Source: Pseudomonas fluorescens (lineage in GTDB: Bacteria; Pseudomonadota; Gammaproteobacteria; Pseudomonadales; Pseudomonadaceae). Taken from it: 64,000 nucleotides of DNA. Made by a program: the position numbers and the translations under genes. This document shows, one piece after another, positions 4,585 through 49,305 of this stretch. Where the stretch lies: the NCBI RefSeq assembly GCF_001623525.1, contig NZ_CP015225.1, forward strand, positions 5,530,501 to 5,594,500, written 5' to 3'. The notes under the pieces were generated by a model that was not told where the DNA came from, searched no databases, and saw nothing but the letters and a program-made list of their open reading frames with translations. The number at the start of each line of letters is the position of its first letter. Within the stretch, counting starts at the first letter, position 1.

Positions 4585-4661
4585 TGGTGGGCCCACACGG
4601 ACTCGAACCGTGGACCAAAGGATTATGAGTCCTCTGCTCTAACCAACTGAGCTATAGGCCC
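4585..4661 (-). tRNA. tRNA-Ile2 (CAU anticodon, lysidine type)
   Basis: A 77-base tRNA with CCA encoded. The acceptor stem GGGCCTA/TGGGCCC, D-arm AGCTCAGTTGGTTAGAGC and T-arm with GGTTCGAGTCC are all present. The anticodon loop reads CTCATAA, giving CAT. The GACTCATAATC stem-loop resembles the minor isoleucine tRNA (ileX type) whose C34 is changed to lysidine, not an elongator Met tRNA. The 3' end faces the accessory DNA at 1-4584 and is complete, as expected when an element integrates into a tRNA gene and restores it. Confidence 0.88.
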
Positions 4662-36997: not shown

Positions 36998-37091
36998 CTT
37001 GTGGGAGCGAGCTTGCTCGCGATGGCGTCGGCACATTCAATATTGATGTCGGCTGATACTCCGCTATCGCGATCAAGCTCGCTCCCACAAG
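36998..37091. repeat. Paired inverted REP elements
   Basis: Facing 26-base copies at 36998-37023 and 37066-37091 (cores GTGGGAGCGAGCTTGC and GCTCGCTCCCAC) downstream of agtR. Confidence 0.85.
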
Positions 37092-43224: not shown

Positions 43225-43899
43225 ATGCAGCCCTTCGCTATTGCTCCGTCGATTCTCTCTGCCGACTTCGCCCGCCTGGGCGAGGAAGTGGACAACGTTC
43301 TGGCCGCCGGGGCCGACATCGTGCACTTCGATGTCATGGACAACCACTACGTACCCAACCTGACCATCGGCCCGATGGTCTGCGCGGCGCTGCGCAAGTA
43401 CGGCGTCACCGCGCCGATCGACGCGCATTTGATGGTCAGCCCGGTGGACCGCATCGTTGGTGACTTCATCGAAGCCGGCGCTACCTACATTACTTTCCAC
43501 CCTGAAGCCACGCAGCACATTGACCGCTCCCTGCAATTGATCCGCGAAGGCGGTTGCAAGGCCGGCCTGGTGTTCAACCCGGCGACGCCCCTGGACGTGC
43601 TCAAGTACGTGATGGACAAGGTCGACATGATCCTGCTGATGAGCGTCAACCCTGGCTTCGGCGGGCAGAAGTTCATCCCGGGCACACTCGACAAGCTGCG
43701 CGAAGCCCGTGCGTTGATCGATGCCTCGGGGCGTGATATCCGCCTGGAAATCGACGGTGGTGTGAATGTAAAGAATATCCGTGAAATCGCCGCGGCCGGC
43801 GCCGACACGTTTGTCGCGGGTTCGGCCATCTTCAACGCACCGGACTACGAAGAGGTGATTGCACAAATGCGCGCCGAACTGGCCCTGGCGCGCCCATGA
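43225..43899 (+). CDS. rpe: Ribulose-phosphate 3-epimerase
   Basis: 224 residues from the ATG at 43225. Signatures: [42 protein letters not shown] and EIDGGVN (metal His and Asp included). It interconverts ribulose-5-P and xylulose-5-P. Its stop overlaps the gph start (ATGA). Confidence 0.97.
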
Positions 43900-44714
43900 G
43901 CGGTTTCGAGCAGCTGTTCCCCGGCAGCTTGCCACGTCTGGTGATGTTCGACCTCGATGGCACATTGGTCGATTCGGTCCCGGACCTCGCGGCGGCGGTG
44001 GACACGATGCTGCTCAAGCTTGGACGCCCGCCTGCCGGCCTCGATTCGGTACGCCACTGGGTCGGCAATGGCGCGCCGATGCTGGTGCGCCGGGCCCTGG
44101 CCAATGACATCGATGCCCAAGGTGTCGATGATGCCGAGGCCGAGCGGGCGCTGGCGTTGTTCAATGAAGCCTACGAAGACAATCACCAACTGACGGTGGT
44201 CTACCCCGGCGTGCGTTCCACCCTCAAGTGGCTGCAAAAGCAGGGCGTGGAAATGGCCCTGATTACCAACAAACCGGAGCGCTTCGTTGCGCCGTTGCTG
44301 GACCAGATGAAAATCGGCCGCTATTTCCGCTGGATCATTGGCGGCGATACCTTACCGCAGAAAAAGCCTGATCCGGCCGCGCTGTTTTTCGTGATGAAAA
44401 TGGCCAACATCCCGGCCTCTCAATCCTTGTTCGTCGGCGACTCGCGCAGCGATGTGCTGGCGGCCAAGGCGGCAGGGGTCAAATGTGTGGCACTGAGTTA
44501 CGGCTACAACCACGGCCGCCCAATCGCCGAAGAATGTCCTGCCCTGGTAATCGACGATTTGCGCCTGTTAATTCCCGGTTGCCTGGACCCGGCCGCTGAG
44601 ATAACGTTGCCCGACGCTGTTCAATCCTCTTCTGGAAACGCCATCGTGGTGGTCACTCGCAAACTCTGGATGAAAGTCATGAAGGCCCTGGCCCGCTGGC
44701 GTTGGCGCACCTGA
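43896..44714 (+). CDS. gph: Phosphoglycolate phosphatase; C-terminal tail doubles as trpE leader peptide
   Basis: 272 residues. HAD motifs: [15 protein letters not shown] (nucleophile Asp about 19), ITNKP (about 123) and [16 protein letters not shown] (about 170-185). It removes phosphate from 2-phosphoglycolate. The HAD core ends near residue 225-230, followed by a tail closing in [14 protein letters not shown]. That ending matches the trp leader peptide upstream of trpG at codon level (18 identical bases across the Trp codons). The gene therefore seems to encode the trpE leader in its last codons, by read-through or by internal initiation at 44670 or 44679. It is overlapped with rpe and lies 70 bases before trpE. 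Confidence 0.93.
44670..44714 (+). promoter_or_regulatory. trpE leader peptide coding region (in frame within gph end)
   Basis: 14 codons [14 protein letters not shown] with two Trp codons between Arg codons (CGC TGG CGT TGG CGC). The sequence at 44691-44708 is identical to 48525-48542 ahead of trpG. The stop lies 10 bases before a GC hairpin (44725-44738), the same spacing as at trpG. Attenuation of trpE and trpGDC is known in P. putida; the peptide assignment here is from sequence comparison. Confidence 0.75.
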
Positions 44715-44724
44715 TGTGATCCCG

Positions 44725-44750
44725 GCCGGTTATCCGGCGCGTTTGCATAC
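44725..44750 (+). terminator. Putative trpE attenuator
   Basis: GCCGG-TTAT-CCGGC stem followed by GCGTTTGCAT, 10 bases after the leader stop. A weak terminator by itself; the competing antiterminator with the Trp-codon segment could not be established by eye. Confidence 0.45.
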
Positions 44751-44784
44751 CTGACTGTCAGCTCCTCTTGCCACGAGGCACTCC

Positions 44785-46266
44785 ATGAACCGCGAAGAAT
44801 TCCTGCGTCTAGCCGCTGCCGGCTACAACCGCATCCCCCTTGCCTGTGAAACCCTGGCTGACTTCGACACGCCGCTGTCGATCTACCTCAAGTTGGCCGA
44901 CCAGCCCAACTCCTACTTGCTCGAATCGGTGCAGGGCGGTGAGAAATGGGGCCGTTATTCCATCATCGGCCTGCCGTGCCGCACGGTGCTGCGGGTCCAT
45001 GACCATCGCGTCAGCGTGACCCACGACGGTGTCGAAATCGAAAGCCTCGAAGTCGAAGACCCGCTGGCGTTCGTCGAAACCTTCAAGGCCCGCTACAACG
45101 TGCCGACCATCCCCGGCCTGCCGCGCTTCAACGGTGGCCTGGTGGGGTATTTCGGCTACGACTGCGTGCGTTACGTGGAAAAACGCCTGGGCACCTGCCC
45201 GAACCCCGATCCGCTGGGCGTGCCGGATATTTTGCTGATGGTGTCCGACGCGGTCGTCGTTTTCGACAACCTCGCCGGCAAGATGCACGCCATCGTCCTG
45301 GCCGATCCGTCCCAGGAAGATGCCTACGAGCAAGGCCAACAAAGCCTGCAAGCACTGTTGGAAAAGTTACGTCAGCCGATCGCTCCGCGTCCCGGCCTGG
45401 ACTTCAGCAAGCAGTCGGCGACCGACCCGGTGTTTCGTTCCAGTTTCACCCAGGACGATTACGAACGGGCCGTCGATACCATCAAGGAGTACATCCTCGC
45501 GGGTGACTGCATGCAGGTAGTGCCGTCGCAACGGATGTCCATTGACTTCAAGGCGGCGCCGATCGATCTCTATCGGGCGCTGCGCTGTTTCAACCCGACG
45601 CCCTACATGTACTTCTTCAACTTCGGCGACTTCCATGTCGTGGGCAGTTCGCCGGAAGTGCTGGTGCGGGTCGAAGACAACCTGATCACCGTACGGCCGA
45701 TCGCCGGCACTCGCCCCCGTGGCGCTACGGAGGAAGCTGACCGGGCCTTGGAAGAGGATCTGCTGTCGGACGACAAGGAAATCGCCGAGCACCTGATGCT
45801 GATTGACCTGGGGCGCAACGACACCGGGCGGGTCTCGGAAATCGGCTCGGTGAAGCTCACCGAGAAGATGGTCATCGAGCGCTATTCCAACGTGATGCAC
45901 ATCGTCTCCAACGTCACCGGCCAGTTGAAGGCCGGGCTGACGGCGATGGACGCCTTGCGGGCGATCCTGCCAGCGGGCACCTTGTCTGGCGCGCCGAAAA
46001 TCCGCGCGATGGAAATCATCGACGAGCTGGAGCCGGTCAAGCGGGGCGTGTACGGCGGGGCCGTGGGTTACTTCGCCTGGAACGGCAATATGGACACTGC
46101 CATTGCCATTCGCACTGCCGTCATCAAGAACGGCGAACTGCACGTACAGGCCGGCGGCGGTATCGTCGCCGACTCGGTGCCGGCGCTGGAGTGGGAAGAA
46201 ACCCTGAACAAGCGCCGGGCCATGTTCCGCGCCGTGGCGCTGGCCGAGCAGACTTCGAACGATTGA
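44785..46266 (+). CDS. trpE: Anthranilate synthase component I
   Basis: 493 residues. The N-terminal regulatory part has the Trp-binding [15 protein letters not shown] element (about 50-64). The chorismate-binding domain shows [31 protein letters not shown] and [12 protein letters not shown]. It makes anthranilate from chorismate with the glutaminase TrpG encoded 2.4 kb downstream. Likely regulated by attenuation via the leader at the end of gph. A GAGG ribosome site precedes the ATG by about six bases. Confidence 0.97.
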
Positions 46267-46291: not shown

Positions 46292-46381
46292 TGTGGGAGC
46301 GAGCTTGCTCGCGATGAGGCCGTCATATTCAACCAACCAGTTGACTGACAGTCCGCTATCGCGAGCAAGCTCGCTCCCACA
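46292..46381. repeat. Paired inverted REP elements
   Basis: Perfect 24-base inverted copies at 46292-46315 and 46358-46381 (cores GGGAGCGAGCTTGCTC and GAGCAAGCTCGCTCCC) between the convergent trpE and estA. Confidence 0.87.
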
Positions 46382-46392
46382 GGTTTTCTCGA

Positions 46393-48300
46393 TCAGAAGT
46401 CCAGGCTGACGCCCAGGCTTACCCCTTGCTGGGTCATGTCATCATCCTTGCGCAGTGTATAACCACCCCGTAGCGCTAAGTCGTTGGTCAACTTGTGGCT
46501 GACCCCCAGGCTCAGGCGATTAAGGTGGCTCTGTGGCGTGTAGCCTTCCAGTGTGAAGTCGTTGGCCGGCAGGCTGTTGAGGGCAATGTTCACCTTTTGC
46601 GTGTCGTCTTCGTACTCGCGTTCGTGGGCATACTCGCCAAACACCTGGGTCTGGCGGGTGATGTTGTATTTGCCCTGCAAGCCAATGCCCAGGCGTTTCG
46701 AGTCGCGGGTCTGGTCATCGAAGGTCAGGGCCGTGGAGCGGTTGCTCTTTTCCGAGTAGCCGTCGACTTCCACCTTCGCATAGTCAGCGCTGATAAACGG
46801 CGAGAGGTGCCATTCGCTGCCCGGTTGGGCAATGTCGTAGCCCACTCGCGTGCTAAATGCCCAGAGATGGCCGTCGGTGTCGCCTTTCTCCTGCGCTTCG
46901 TTGACGCCCAGGTCGAACTTGCGCTCCAGGTTGTCGTAGTCGAGCTTGCCGCCGGTCAGTGCCGCATCGGCCCACCAGCGGTTTTGCTGGAACTGGGCGA
47001 AAGCGGTCGCCAGGTAGCTATTGAGTTTGTACTTCGAATCGTTGTGGCCTGCTTCCATGTCCTGGCGGTAGAGGCCGGCGGCGACACCTACGCGCCACGC
47101 GTCGTTGAGGCGATAGCTGCCGCCAATGTTCAGGCTGTAGCCACTGCCATCGGCGCTGGCGCCGCTGTCCTGGCTGTCCATGTCCAGATGCTGACCACCG
47201 CCGGCCACGATGGCCCGCCACTGACCGACGGCCTGCCAGTTCTCCCAGTCCGATTGCCACTGGCTGCGTAACTCGTCCTGGTGAGCGCGCAGGGTCGAGT
47301 GGGCCATTTCCGGCAGCAACGTCAGCTCCCATGGTGCCGCGAGCAGGGAATAGGCGTAGTCGGCGATCAGTTTCTGTCCGGCTTCAGTCGGATGGACCGC
47401 GTCGTTGTAGATCAGCTTGGTGGGATCAGGCGTGGCGCTGTTGATGCCGTAGGTGGCGTTTTCGGTGCAGCCATTGCCAGTGAAGCAGGTCGCGGTGAGG
47501 TTCTCACCGATGGCGAGGCCGAATCTTGCCGGGTCGGCGAAGCTTTCCTTGAGCAACAGCGGAATGTTCAATGGAATGATTTCAGCGTCGATGCCTTGCA
47601 GTCGCGTGATCAGCTGTTGGTTGAACTGGTTGCCCAGTTGCGAAAAGAAGTCTTGCGAAGGGCTGCCGTTGAGGAAGGGCGTCAGGCCCAGGTCGGGTAA
47701 CAGCCAGACCATCACATAGCGGGCTCCGGCCGTTTGCAGCGCCTGGACACTGCTGGCCAGACGGTCCGCGGCTTTACTCGCTTGCTCGGGGGTCAGCACT
47801 AGGCCTTGTAGGAAGTCGTTGCCACCACCGGAAATGTAATACAGCGCATTTGGATCGGCGCGCAGGCCATTGGACTGCAGGTAGCCAGGACGGCTGCGCT
47901 CGCCGGTGTCGGACACGCCGGTAATCGATTCGAGGATCTGGGCGGTGCGATAACCGCCCACCGCCCAGTTGTTGCCGTCCGCCAGCCCCTGGTCGGCGCG
48001 GACCGCCGAAGTGGAAGCGGCAGTCTCGTCGGCGGAATAACCCAGGCGCCCACCGAGCAACTGGGTGGAGTTGGCGGAGTAGGCCTCGCCGCTGCCGTCG
48101 GTATAGATCGGACCGGTTCGGTTGGTGTAACGCTCGGTCGAGCCGGGCGGACCATTCGGGTCGGCGAACTGGCCGGCGTCGTTGAGGCTGTCGCCGAACA
48201 CGATGAACTTGGAATAAGGGTTGGGGGCGGCGCTCGCCTGGGCGCAGGCCATCGCCAGCAGGCAACCGGCAATCGGTACGAACAACGTCTTCTTTATCAT
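46393..48300 (-). CDS. estA: GDSL-type autotransporter esterase
   Basis: 635 residues from the ATG at 48300. Signal peptide 1-24; GDSL block FGDSLNDAG with nucleophile Ser38; GGGND (about 158) and DAVHPTEAG (about 302) complete the SGNH set. The C-terminal autotransporter beta barrel (about 350-635) ends in the classical terminal Phe (GVSLDF). The passenger stays on the cell surface and hydrolyses short-chain esters; in P. aeruginosa EstA affects rhamnolipid production and motility. In P. putida the same gene also sits between trpE and trpG. Confidence 0.95.
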
Positions 48301-48461
48301 GGGAAAGTCCGTTTTTATCTTATTTTTGTTAGAAAACGAAACGACAGTACCAAAAACTTCCGGCATTTTGCCATCCATCTTGAACGTCGCGATTGTTTCA
48401 AAGCCCTTCGGGATCGCCCATATTGCGTGCTCCGCCCAGCTAAGCTACTGTGCCGGGACGT
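48301..48461. other. Divergent estA/trp leader intergenic region
   Basis: AT-richer DNA with the estA leader on one side. A candidate promoter for the trpGDC leader, TTGCGT-17-TACTGT (48423-48451), lies on the other; its start would fall so near the ATG at 48462 that the shorter leader (ATG 48510) is more likely. Confidence 0.35.
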
Positions 48462-48548
48462 ATGAACGAGACTTTCCCTGTGTCGATTGTCAGCAAACTT
48501 CTGGATCAAATGATCAAGGCACACGCCCGCTGGCGTTGGCGCGCCTGA
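48462..48548 (+). promoter_or_regulatory. trpGDC leader peptide
   Basis: A small frame encoding 28 residues from ATG 48462 or 12 residues (MIKAHARWRWRA) from ATG 48510. It has the same Arg-Trp-Arg-Trp-Arg run as the gph tail. Alignment IVSKLLDQMIKAHARWRWR versus [19 protein letters not shown] shows that the two leaders are related over at least 19 residues. The hairpin starts 10 bases after the stop. Confidence 0.75.
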
Positions 48549-48558
48549 ACATTCTCCG

Positions 48559-48595
48559 CCGGCTTCGCCGGACCTGTACCGATTTGCCTTCTTTA
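48559..48595 (+). terminator. Putative trpGDC attenuator
   Basis: CCGGC-TTC-GCCGG stem followed by ACCTGTACCGATTTGCC and a T-rich stretch. Position relative to the leader stop equals that at trpE. Confidence 0.45.
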
Positions 48596-48711
48596 CCCGC
48601 TTGTAGAGCCGCTTCGCAGGGGCATCACTTGCCTCGCCAAGCGCAGCAGCGTGCGGGTCATTCTCTGAAGGCTGTATTTAAAGTCAGTGAATTCAATAGG
48701 TCGCTTACGCC

Positions 48712-49305
48712 ATGTTGCTGATGATCGATAACTACGACTCTTTTACCTACAACGTTGTGCAGTACCTCGGCGAGCTGGGCTCCGAGGTCAAGGTCGTGCG
48801 CAACGACGAATTGACCATCGCCGAAATCGAAGCCCTCAAGCCTGAGCGCATCGTGGTTTCGCCCGGCCCATGCACGCCGACCGAAGCGGGCATTTCCATC
48901 GACGCCATCAAGTATTTCGCCGGCAAGCTGCCGATCCTCGGTGTCTGCCTGGGGCACCAGTCGATCGGCCAAGCGTTCGGCGGCGACGTGGTACGCGCCC
49001 GACAAGTCATGCACGGTAAGACTAGCCCGGTATTCCACGAGGACAAGGGCGTGTTCGAGGGGCTGAATCATCCGCTTACCGTAACCCGCTACCATTCCCT
49101 GGTGGTCAAGCGCGAAACTCTGCCCGACTGTCTGGAGTTGACGGCCTGGACCCAGTTTGAAGATGGCTCGGTCGATGAAATCATGGGCCTGCGCCACAAG
49201 ACGCTGAATATCGAGGGTGTGCAATTTCATCCCGAGTCTATTCTCACCGAACAGGGCCACGAACTGTTCGCCAACTTCCTCAAACAAACCGGCGGCACGC
49301 GCTAA
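48712..49305 (+). CDS. trpG: Anthranilate/aminodeoxychorismate synthase glutaminase
   Basis: 197 residues. Class I glutamine amidotransferase: [10 protein letters not shown] at the N-terminus, nucleophile Cys79 in [15 protein letters not shown] and the His-Glu pair in VQFHPESIL (about 168-176). It supplies ammonia to TrpE and probably also to PabB. First gene of trpGDC, spaced 9 bases from trpD. Confidence 0.97.

Follow-up and report, generated by a model that had tools for sequence, protein, structure and literature searches.

In the 64,000-nucleotide stretch of Pseudomonas fluorescens DNA analysed here (contig NZ_CP015225.1; hereafter the window), the phosphoglycolate phosphatase gene, gph, runs in frame into the leader open reading frame (ORF) of the anthranilate synthase gene trpE, and both end on a common stop codon. 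The surprise lies less in the leader itself than in its single merger with a coding sequence, a merger apparently kept by selection. We propose, with a probability of about 0.55, that a ribosome-sensed trp attenuator lies between gph and trpE, with a promoter and a GTG start of its own, and that ribosomes translating gph would also read its Trp codons on mRNA begun upstream. The anatomy of the fusion, its single origin, the keeping of the frame and the absence of nonsense codons all emerge from comparison of related genomes, as does a covarying long-range helix in the leader RNA.

The leader ORF at the end of gph

The following features make up the merged locus:
43896..44714, + strand: gph, phosphoglycolate phosphatase, 272 amino acids (NCBIfam PRK13223.1, 548.7 bits, cut-off 466, profile length 272)
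44574..44645, + strand: linker, Gph residues 227-250, between the phosphatase fold and the leader (omega, the ratio of nonsynonymous to synonymous rates, 0.71; no in-frame stop)
44579..44607, + strand: promoter-like block within the gph frame (TTGCCT, 17 nucleotides, TAACGT), of a form recurring in 71 of 129 genomes
44646..44714, + strand: trpE leader ORF, 22 amino acids, in frame with gph, common stop (GTG conserved; RNA model match of 138.9 bits)
44785..46266, + strand: trpE, anthranilate synthase component I, the regulated gene (TIGR00564.1, 574 bits, cut-off 517.7)

An earlier note on this DNA had read the tail of gph as a trpE leader peptide, and the gph ORF does end in the leader, the common stop being TGA 44712-44714. 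The leader's Trp codons lie at 44667, 44697 and 44703, corresponding to codon positions 8, 18 and 20. The note had taken the leader to be the last 14 codons, from ATG 44670; conservation favours 22 codons from GTG 44646 instead. The first codon is GTG in all 117 leaders with the start motif, which demands Val and not any particular codon. The codon after it varies (GTG 87, GTA 7, TTT 7, GCG 6, GTT 6, others 4), as does the third codon in these motif-aligned leaders, and a Met near the ATG is absent in 12 of the 117. Because GTG is kept throughout while the following codons vary, GTG 44646 is most likely the start of a 22-codon leader. The remaining 12 of the 129 leaders were given a start by choosing a GTG in frame, hence only the 117 count as evidence. 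The GTG is retained inside the fused clade too.

The Shine-Dalgarno match of the leader is weak (fused -3.2, non-fused -3.65, random positions -2.55) and is not clearly weaker in fused than in non-fused genomes (P=0.83). Given this comparable match, the GTG and the promoter-like block 5' of the leader, the notion that sensing needs gph is not supported; the leader appears to have a start of its own. A Trp-x-Trp pair is present in 129 of 129 leaders, as the way of finding them required, and a further Trp codon precedes the pair in 112.

The stretch KALARWRWR (44682-44708) shows strong conservation across most of the family, free leaders included, and differs in the genera that we label g18, g7 and g19. 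By analogy with peTrpL, discussed below, this basic, Trp-rich stretch may have a role as a peptide.

We assessed the distribution of the fusion in 135 family genomes, namely a genus sample of 59 and a family sample of 79, two of them shared, minus one (G096) in which TrpE matched too weakly for its position to be fixed. The leader is present in 129 and was not found in 6. It shares one stop with gph in 70 of the 135 and is separate in 52, gph not being in the stretch in 7. Since the leader occurs in 129 genomes and gph runs in frame into it in only 70, the leader is older than the fusion. Where the two are not fused, gph stops earlier and the leader may lie in any frame (relative frames 0, 1 and 2 in 12, 19 and 21 of the 52 separate cases). 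Fused genomes make up 54 of 64 in the window's genus; three further genera are fused throughout (2 of 2, 7 of 7 and 7 of 7) and the remaining 15 not at all. The idea that the Gph C-terminus is a captured leader thus holds, the leader being apart from gph or missing in 15 of the 19 genera sampled.

Trees were built with quick settings from the Gph core and up to 60 residues of TrpE, omitting genomes without gph in the stretch. In the first tree, the four label changes comprised one gain (clade support 96) and three losses, with all fused rows inside the clade; on this tree, gph grew into the leader once. A denser sample added 86 further genomes with a match, of 87 new ones in the window's genus, the leader starts of these loci being set by in-frame GTG. 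It gave a clade of 147 rows, 142 fused and five not, with five label changes in all; a hand count of 125 fused among the 148 genomes with a match in the denser genus sampling agrees with the tree-based counts. P0022 and P0107, apparently chimeric contigs of 1 kb, were excluded. Whereas leader peptides are usually regarded as independent and dispensable, the present one stays joined to an enzyme in 142 of 147 clade rows.

The leader is out of frame in four of the five non-fused rows (L048, L061, L284 and L285) and absent from the fifth (L138). L061 and L284 were counted as one loss and may be two frameshifts. In L048, gph ends within the leader; misreading of a run of C during sequencing may account for this (completeness 95, single contig). 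L138 is a 2.6-Mb relative (G060) with no recognisable leader, in which the gph frame continues to the trpE start. At G051:C1:1591760-1593871 (L058), two tandem gph-like matches both reach residue 271; this may be a local duplication or an assembly error, the genome being flagged as 9% contaminated.

Outside the family, gph lies ahead of trpE on the same strand in 7 of 28 loci from the order; none is fused and a few have a separate Trp-rich ORF. A tailed Gph without trpE behind it, which the earlier note had named as the refuting case, was not seen among loci found via Gph, with trpE sought in the fetched stretch: trpE follows the tailed gph in 51/51, 72/72 and, for named loci, 80/80. All 80 closest relatives among named genomes are fused with trpE adjacent, in a scan that favours close relatives; the nearest named loci belong to P. 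kilonensis, P. frederiksbergensis SI8 and P. thivervalensis. Proteins from P. syringae and P. aeruginosa, the latter including P0150, carry the same tail. A class-wide search for RWRWR-like ends gave scattered matches, by pattern alone, in 43 of 94 genomes. None of the titles and abstract openings listed by our literature search concerned a leader fused to gph, a weak negative since most subscription papers were beyond reach.

The fusion has also shaped annotation. The NCBIfam model NF009698 (PRK13223.1) is 272 positions long, leader included. P0150 scores 538.7 against it, close to the window's gph, whereas the four non-fused relatives tested score 332.6-379.9, below the cut-off. Annotation therefore follows the fusion, and databases present the leader as part of the enzyme.

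Leader RNA, promoter-like block and proposed working

Three elements of the leader RNA were recognised:
44651..44664, + strand: long-range helix, 5' strand (GGUCA 44651-44655, GCAAAC 44659-44664), inside leader codons 2-7; covariation
44725..44738, + strand: hairpin H (GCCGG-UUAU-CCGGC), 10 nucleotides after the stop; conserved strong hairpin
44741..44756, + strand: long-range helix, 3' strand (GUUUGC 44741-44746, UGACU 44752-44756); covariation, as for the 5' strand

Covariation was scored in 57 leaders picked from the 129 for spread. The whole structure (GGUCA/UGACY, GCAAAC/GUUUGC and hairpin H) scored 0.176, compared with 0.113 for shuffles, 0 of 500 of which reached it, and at most 0.119 when slid; 72.7% of alignment cells pair across the structure. 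Compensating pairs occur in several genera, with ACACAC/GUGUGU in g9, GCAAGC/GCUUGC in g12, GCACAG/CUGUGC in g6 and AAAAACACA/UGUGUUUUU in g13. In 89 of 120 distinct leaders, a strand finds a better partner within its own leader than in those of other genera; by a hand count on genus means, this holds for 15 of 18 genera. Hairpin H is strong in 95% of 118 distinct leaders versus 24% of shuffles (first-order resamplings, as in the promoter test below), and its stem lies 6-16 nucleotides after the stop (9-10 in 94 of the 118).

Three T are found in the 8 nucleotides after hairpin H in 76 of 118 leaders. Directly after the long-range helix the share of T is 0.36, versus 0.24 overall (n=115), though the window has no such U run; this T-rich stretch lends weak support to transcription stopping there. 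The long-range helix can extend into the hairpin arm, and the two coexist in the minimum-energy fold of the leader. The free energies of the leaders showed no excess stability over shuffles. Between leader and gene we looked for an intrinsic terminator (a G+C hairpin plus a U run), and found the hairpin conserved but the U run poor. We therefore state an attenuator-like working and do not claim one of the Escherichia coli type. In four genomes of g9 (L076, L078, L081 and L085), the leader stop is 117-214 nucleotides from trpE, against about 70 elsewhere, and the extra length is an insert ahead of the trpE ribosome site.

The promoter-like block, written TTG[AC][TC][TC]-N16-18-TA[AG][CT]GT and located 32-47 nucleotides 5' of the GTG, occurs in 71 of 129 genomes, with 49 of 70 fused genomes and 22 of 59 others carrying it, whereas none of 2580 shuffles contains it. 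Of those 22 non-fused genomes, 7 have the gph stop in the -35 hexamer and 9 in the -10 hexamer; gph stops short of the block in 5 more and beyond it in the last one. Modulo 3, the distance from the -10 hexamer to the GTG is identical in all 49 fused genomes that have the block and varies in the others (12, 8 and 2). By these comparisons, the leader and its putative promoter are older than the fusion. In the ancestor, gph would have stopped ahead of the leader, the promoter itself providing the stop codon in many lineages. The common forebear of most Pseudomonas and of a few genera close to them would then have lost this stop in the one frame that enters the leader, so that gph and leader share a stop. 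This suggests a route to gene extension in which a stop codon that doubles as a promoter element drifts away. In one non-fused locus (L087), tandem GCGGCTT repeats fill part of the gap between the gph stop and the trpE leader.

Promoter activity, the mRNAs, stalling, the sign of the switch and any service of frame keeping to regulation are what we infer. There would be two kinds of mRNA, a short one from the internal promoter, with ribosomes starting at the GTG, and a longer one from rpe-gph, on which the ribosome finishing gph would be the sensing ribosome. Under plentiful Trp-tRNA, ribosomes would clear the leader, codons 2-7 would pair with the segment behind hairpin H and trpE would be held down. 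Under scarcity, a ribosome stalled at the first Trp codon would cover the 5' helix strand and allow trpE to be expressed; alternatively, one stalled at the later Trp pair would block closure of the helix, with the same outcome. The place of the first Trp codon is the reason for assigning the switch this sign. Ribosomes from gph would by this scheme feed into the control of trpE. A scheme with hairpin H as a plain terminator and the helix as antiterminator was rejected by reasoning, because a stall at codon 8 would favour the terminator under starvation, which is the wrong sign; for this reason we prefer the helix as the off state.

Probable selection on the unbroken frame

The linker offers a view of what selection may be keeping. 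With rows lacking the leader excluded, 16 length changes were counted inside the clade, 4 of them out of frame and 12 in frame, against 43 in non-fused lineages, 27 out of frame and 16 in frame (Fisher P=0.018; clade against a 2/3 expectation, binomial P=8e-4), parsimony counts being not fully independent events. The first sample had given 2 of 11 out of frame in the clade versus 22 of 34 outside (P=0.013). Among 120 fused genomes with a 72-nucleotide linker, 563 base changes include 0 nonsense codons; weighting by column puts the expectation at 9.9-10.6 (P 3e-5 to 5e-5). Of the five non-fused clade rows, none has a plain nonsense codon as read, although one hidden by a later frameshift is possible. 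By codon position, the linker changes number 218/145/200, and the peptide itself therefore appears little constrained. Omega, from 32 pairs picked greedily among fused rows, is 0.71 in the linker (0.53-0.93; biased upward, as the synonymous rate itself is low there), 0.126 in the phosphatase core and 0.25 in the leader (0.13-0.41). Since length changes are mostly in frame and nonsense codons are lacking, the unbroken frame, more than the peptide, seems to be kept by selection.

Why the frame should be kept is a separate matter. Tentatively, and with less confidence than in the attenuator itself, we suggest that in most Pseudomonas gph serves as its neighbour's sensor: on read-through mRNA, ribosomes would pass unbroken into the leader and report Trp-tRNA for trpE, and the merger would have been held by selection since its single origin, to the point of keeping stop codons out of a linker that otherwise drifts. 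If true, an upstream gene can act as the sensor of an attenuator, and amino-acid control reaches transcripts begun outside the attenuator's own promoter.

A rather unlikely alternative is that the tail has been adopted as part of the Gph protein, with a flexible linker and a C-terminal helix rich in Trp and basic residues, suited for instance to binding a membrane or a partner, selected for the enzyme and not for trpE. The rarity of linker stops and frameshifts despite drifting residues would be expected from it, and the length of the NCBI family model, tail included, fits. An AlphaFold2 model from 51 relatives places a helix at residues 255-271, with low confidence. That model has high confidence to about residue 230, but the predicted local distance difference test score falls under 50 for residues 231-260 and 265-272, and the best solved relative, 2hsz, aligns only up to residue 223; as modelled, the tail is not part of the phosphatase fold. 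Moreover, the leader is conserved outside Gph as well, so that Gph is needless to explain its conservation, and the non-fused Gph of the same family manages without a tail.

Mere compatibility is unlikely. Here the leader would work from its own GTG, to which the own start and promoter-like block testify, and in-frame reading by gph ribosomes would simply be tolerated, and frameshifts would be purged since gph ribosomes in the wrong frame would spoil the leader. Consistent with this, gph ends at least 36 nucleotides ahead of the leader start in the 50 non-fused genomes outside the clade, and inside the clade the gph of L048 ends within the leader. Compatibility nevertheless predicts that an early gph stop is harmless, and about 10 nonsense codons were expected where none was seen. 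An unbroken frame might instead keep ribosomes on the read-through mRNA as far as the leader stop and thereby shield it from Rho, with Trp sensing by gph ribosomes as a by-product. This improbable account fits the missing nonsense codons alongside a drifting peptide, yet the same 50 genomes leave that gap between gph stop and leader. A neutral accident, the loss of the gph stop without consequence, is very unlikely: a single origin and a linker omega not far below 1 agree with it, but the out-of-frame counts and the missing nonsense codons already disfavour it.

Several observations weigh against the attenuator sensed by gph ribosomes. The P values for frame keeping are moderate and were obtained by parsimony on a tree built with quick settings; the clade shows four losses of the fusion; and in L138 the gph frame continues although the leader is gone, which a protein role of the tail would explain just as well. 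In the RNA, the outer helix pairs in only 51.5% of cells (the alignment misplaces some genera), and g2, g11 and g18 show no advantage of own over foreign strands. The window's leader RNA is no more stable than shuffles (z 0.09), its hairpin H is without a U run, and a terminator scan finds nothing on the + strand there. The promoter-like block was not found in 58 of 129 genomes, and a strict sigma-70 promoter scan of the window was negative at the trpE leader.

The second leader, the locus and known systems

A second trp leader lies ahead of trpG:
48480..48548, + strand: trpG leader ORF, 22 amino acids (VSIVSKLLDQMIKAHARWRWRA), GTG to TGA (RNA model match 48480-48620, 54 bits)
48712..49305, + strand: trpG, anthranilate synthase component II (PRK08857.1, 356.8 bits, cut-off 345)

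The trpG leader is unfused, the gene upstream (46393-48378) being on the other strand. The earlier note had described 18 shared bases, a related preceding segment and an equal distance from stop to hairpin in the two leaders, all of which were borne out. The longest common string is 18 nucleotides (GCCCGCTGGCGTTGGCGC), at 44691 and 48525, and occurs at only those two sites in the window, both strands searched. The two 69-nucleotide ORFs agree at 47 of 69 positions without gaps, and 10 bases separate the stop from a 5-pair G+C hairpin in both. An RNA model derived from leaders related to that of trpE has two matches in the 6.9-Mb genome at E <= 0.1 (Infernal, stricter filters), the trpE leader (138.9 bits) and the trpG leader (54.0 bits). 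As these are the only two and both are trp leaders, the likeness is not chance: the leader RNAs of trpE (44646-44787) and trpG (48480-48620) are homologous to each other. The model places one to three matches in each of 78 of 79 family genomes. The strict promoter scan gave one promoter-like match inside the trpG leader, at 48487-48514.

The gene order in the window is rpe, gph, trpE, an opposite-strand autotransporter gene (46393-48378), trpG, trpD and trpC. The names rpe, trpD, trpC and autotransporter are putative and go by the translations, whereas gph, trpE and trpG were checked by family profiles. The gph start overlaps the stop of rpe by 4 bases (ATGA). Behind trpE, at 46293-46380, lies an inverted repeat (GTGGGAGCGAGCTTGCTCGCGA ... 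TCGCGAGCAAGCTCGCTCCCAC), presumably akin to a repetitive extragenic palindromic (REP)-type element, one arm of which recurs at 37001-37022. The autotransporter gene is named estA in a P. brassicacearum paper with the same gene order (PMC6722718). For strain 3Re2-7 (order gph, trpE, estA, trpG) its table gives 4.60 for gph and 4.43 for trpE, presumably in log2 transcripts per million, the unit mentioned in the text (PMC6722718). In Acidithiobacillus ferrooxidans, gph (cbbZ) and trpE are reported to be linked and co-transcribed (PMC2942843), which is why we consider the neighbourhood old.

The second leader has a parallel. In P. aeruginosa, early 3' ends adjoin a potential GTG upstream ORF ahead of trpGDC (PMC8297930), the same operon as that behind the window's second leader, which in the window is not fused to any gene. 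The peTrpL of Sinorhizobium meliloti is a trp leader peptide that acts as a free 14-amino-acid peptide (PMC7298713). It resembles the present case in that a trp leader peptide gains a further role as a product, and differs in being free, whereas the window's leader is also the tail of an enzyme.

Against known RNAs, an Rfam scan of the window at gathering score returned one match, a tRNA at 4588, and none over 44646-44787; this leader RNA, marked by a covarying long-range helix, might found a newly described RNA family. The E. coli trpL attenuator is alike in having a short leader ORF with Trp codons near its stop, a hairpin soon after and a biosynthesis gene downstream. Unlike trpL, the window's leader is fused in frame to an upstream enzyme gene, has a weak U tract behind the hairpin and forms a long-range helix from the leader start to behind the hairpin. 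In Pseudomonas putida, attenuation of trpE and trpGDC was reportedly described by Olekhnovich and Gussin in 2001, going by the title: the same genes and the same kind of control as proposed for the window.

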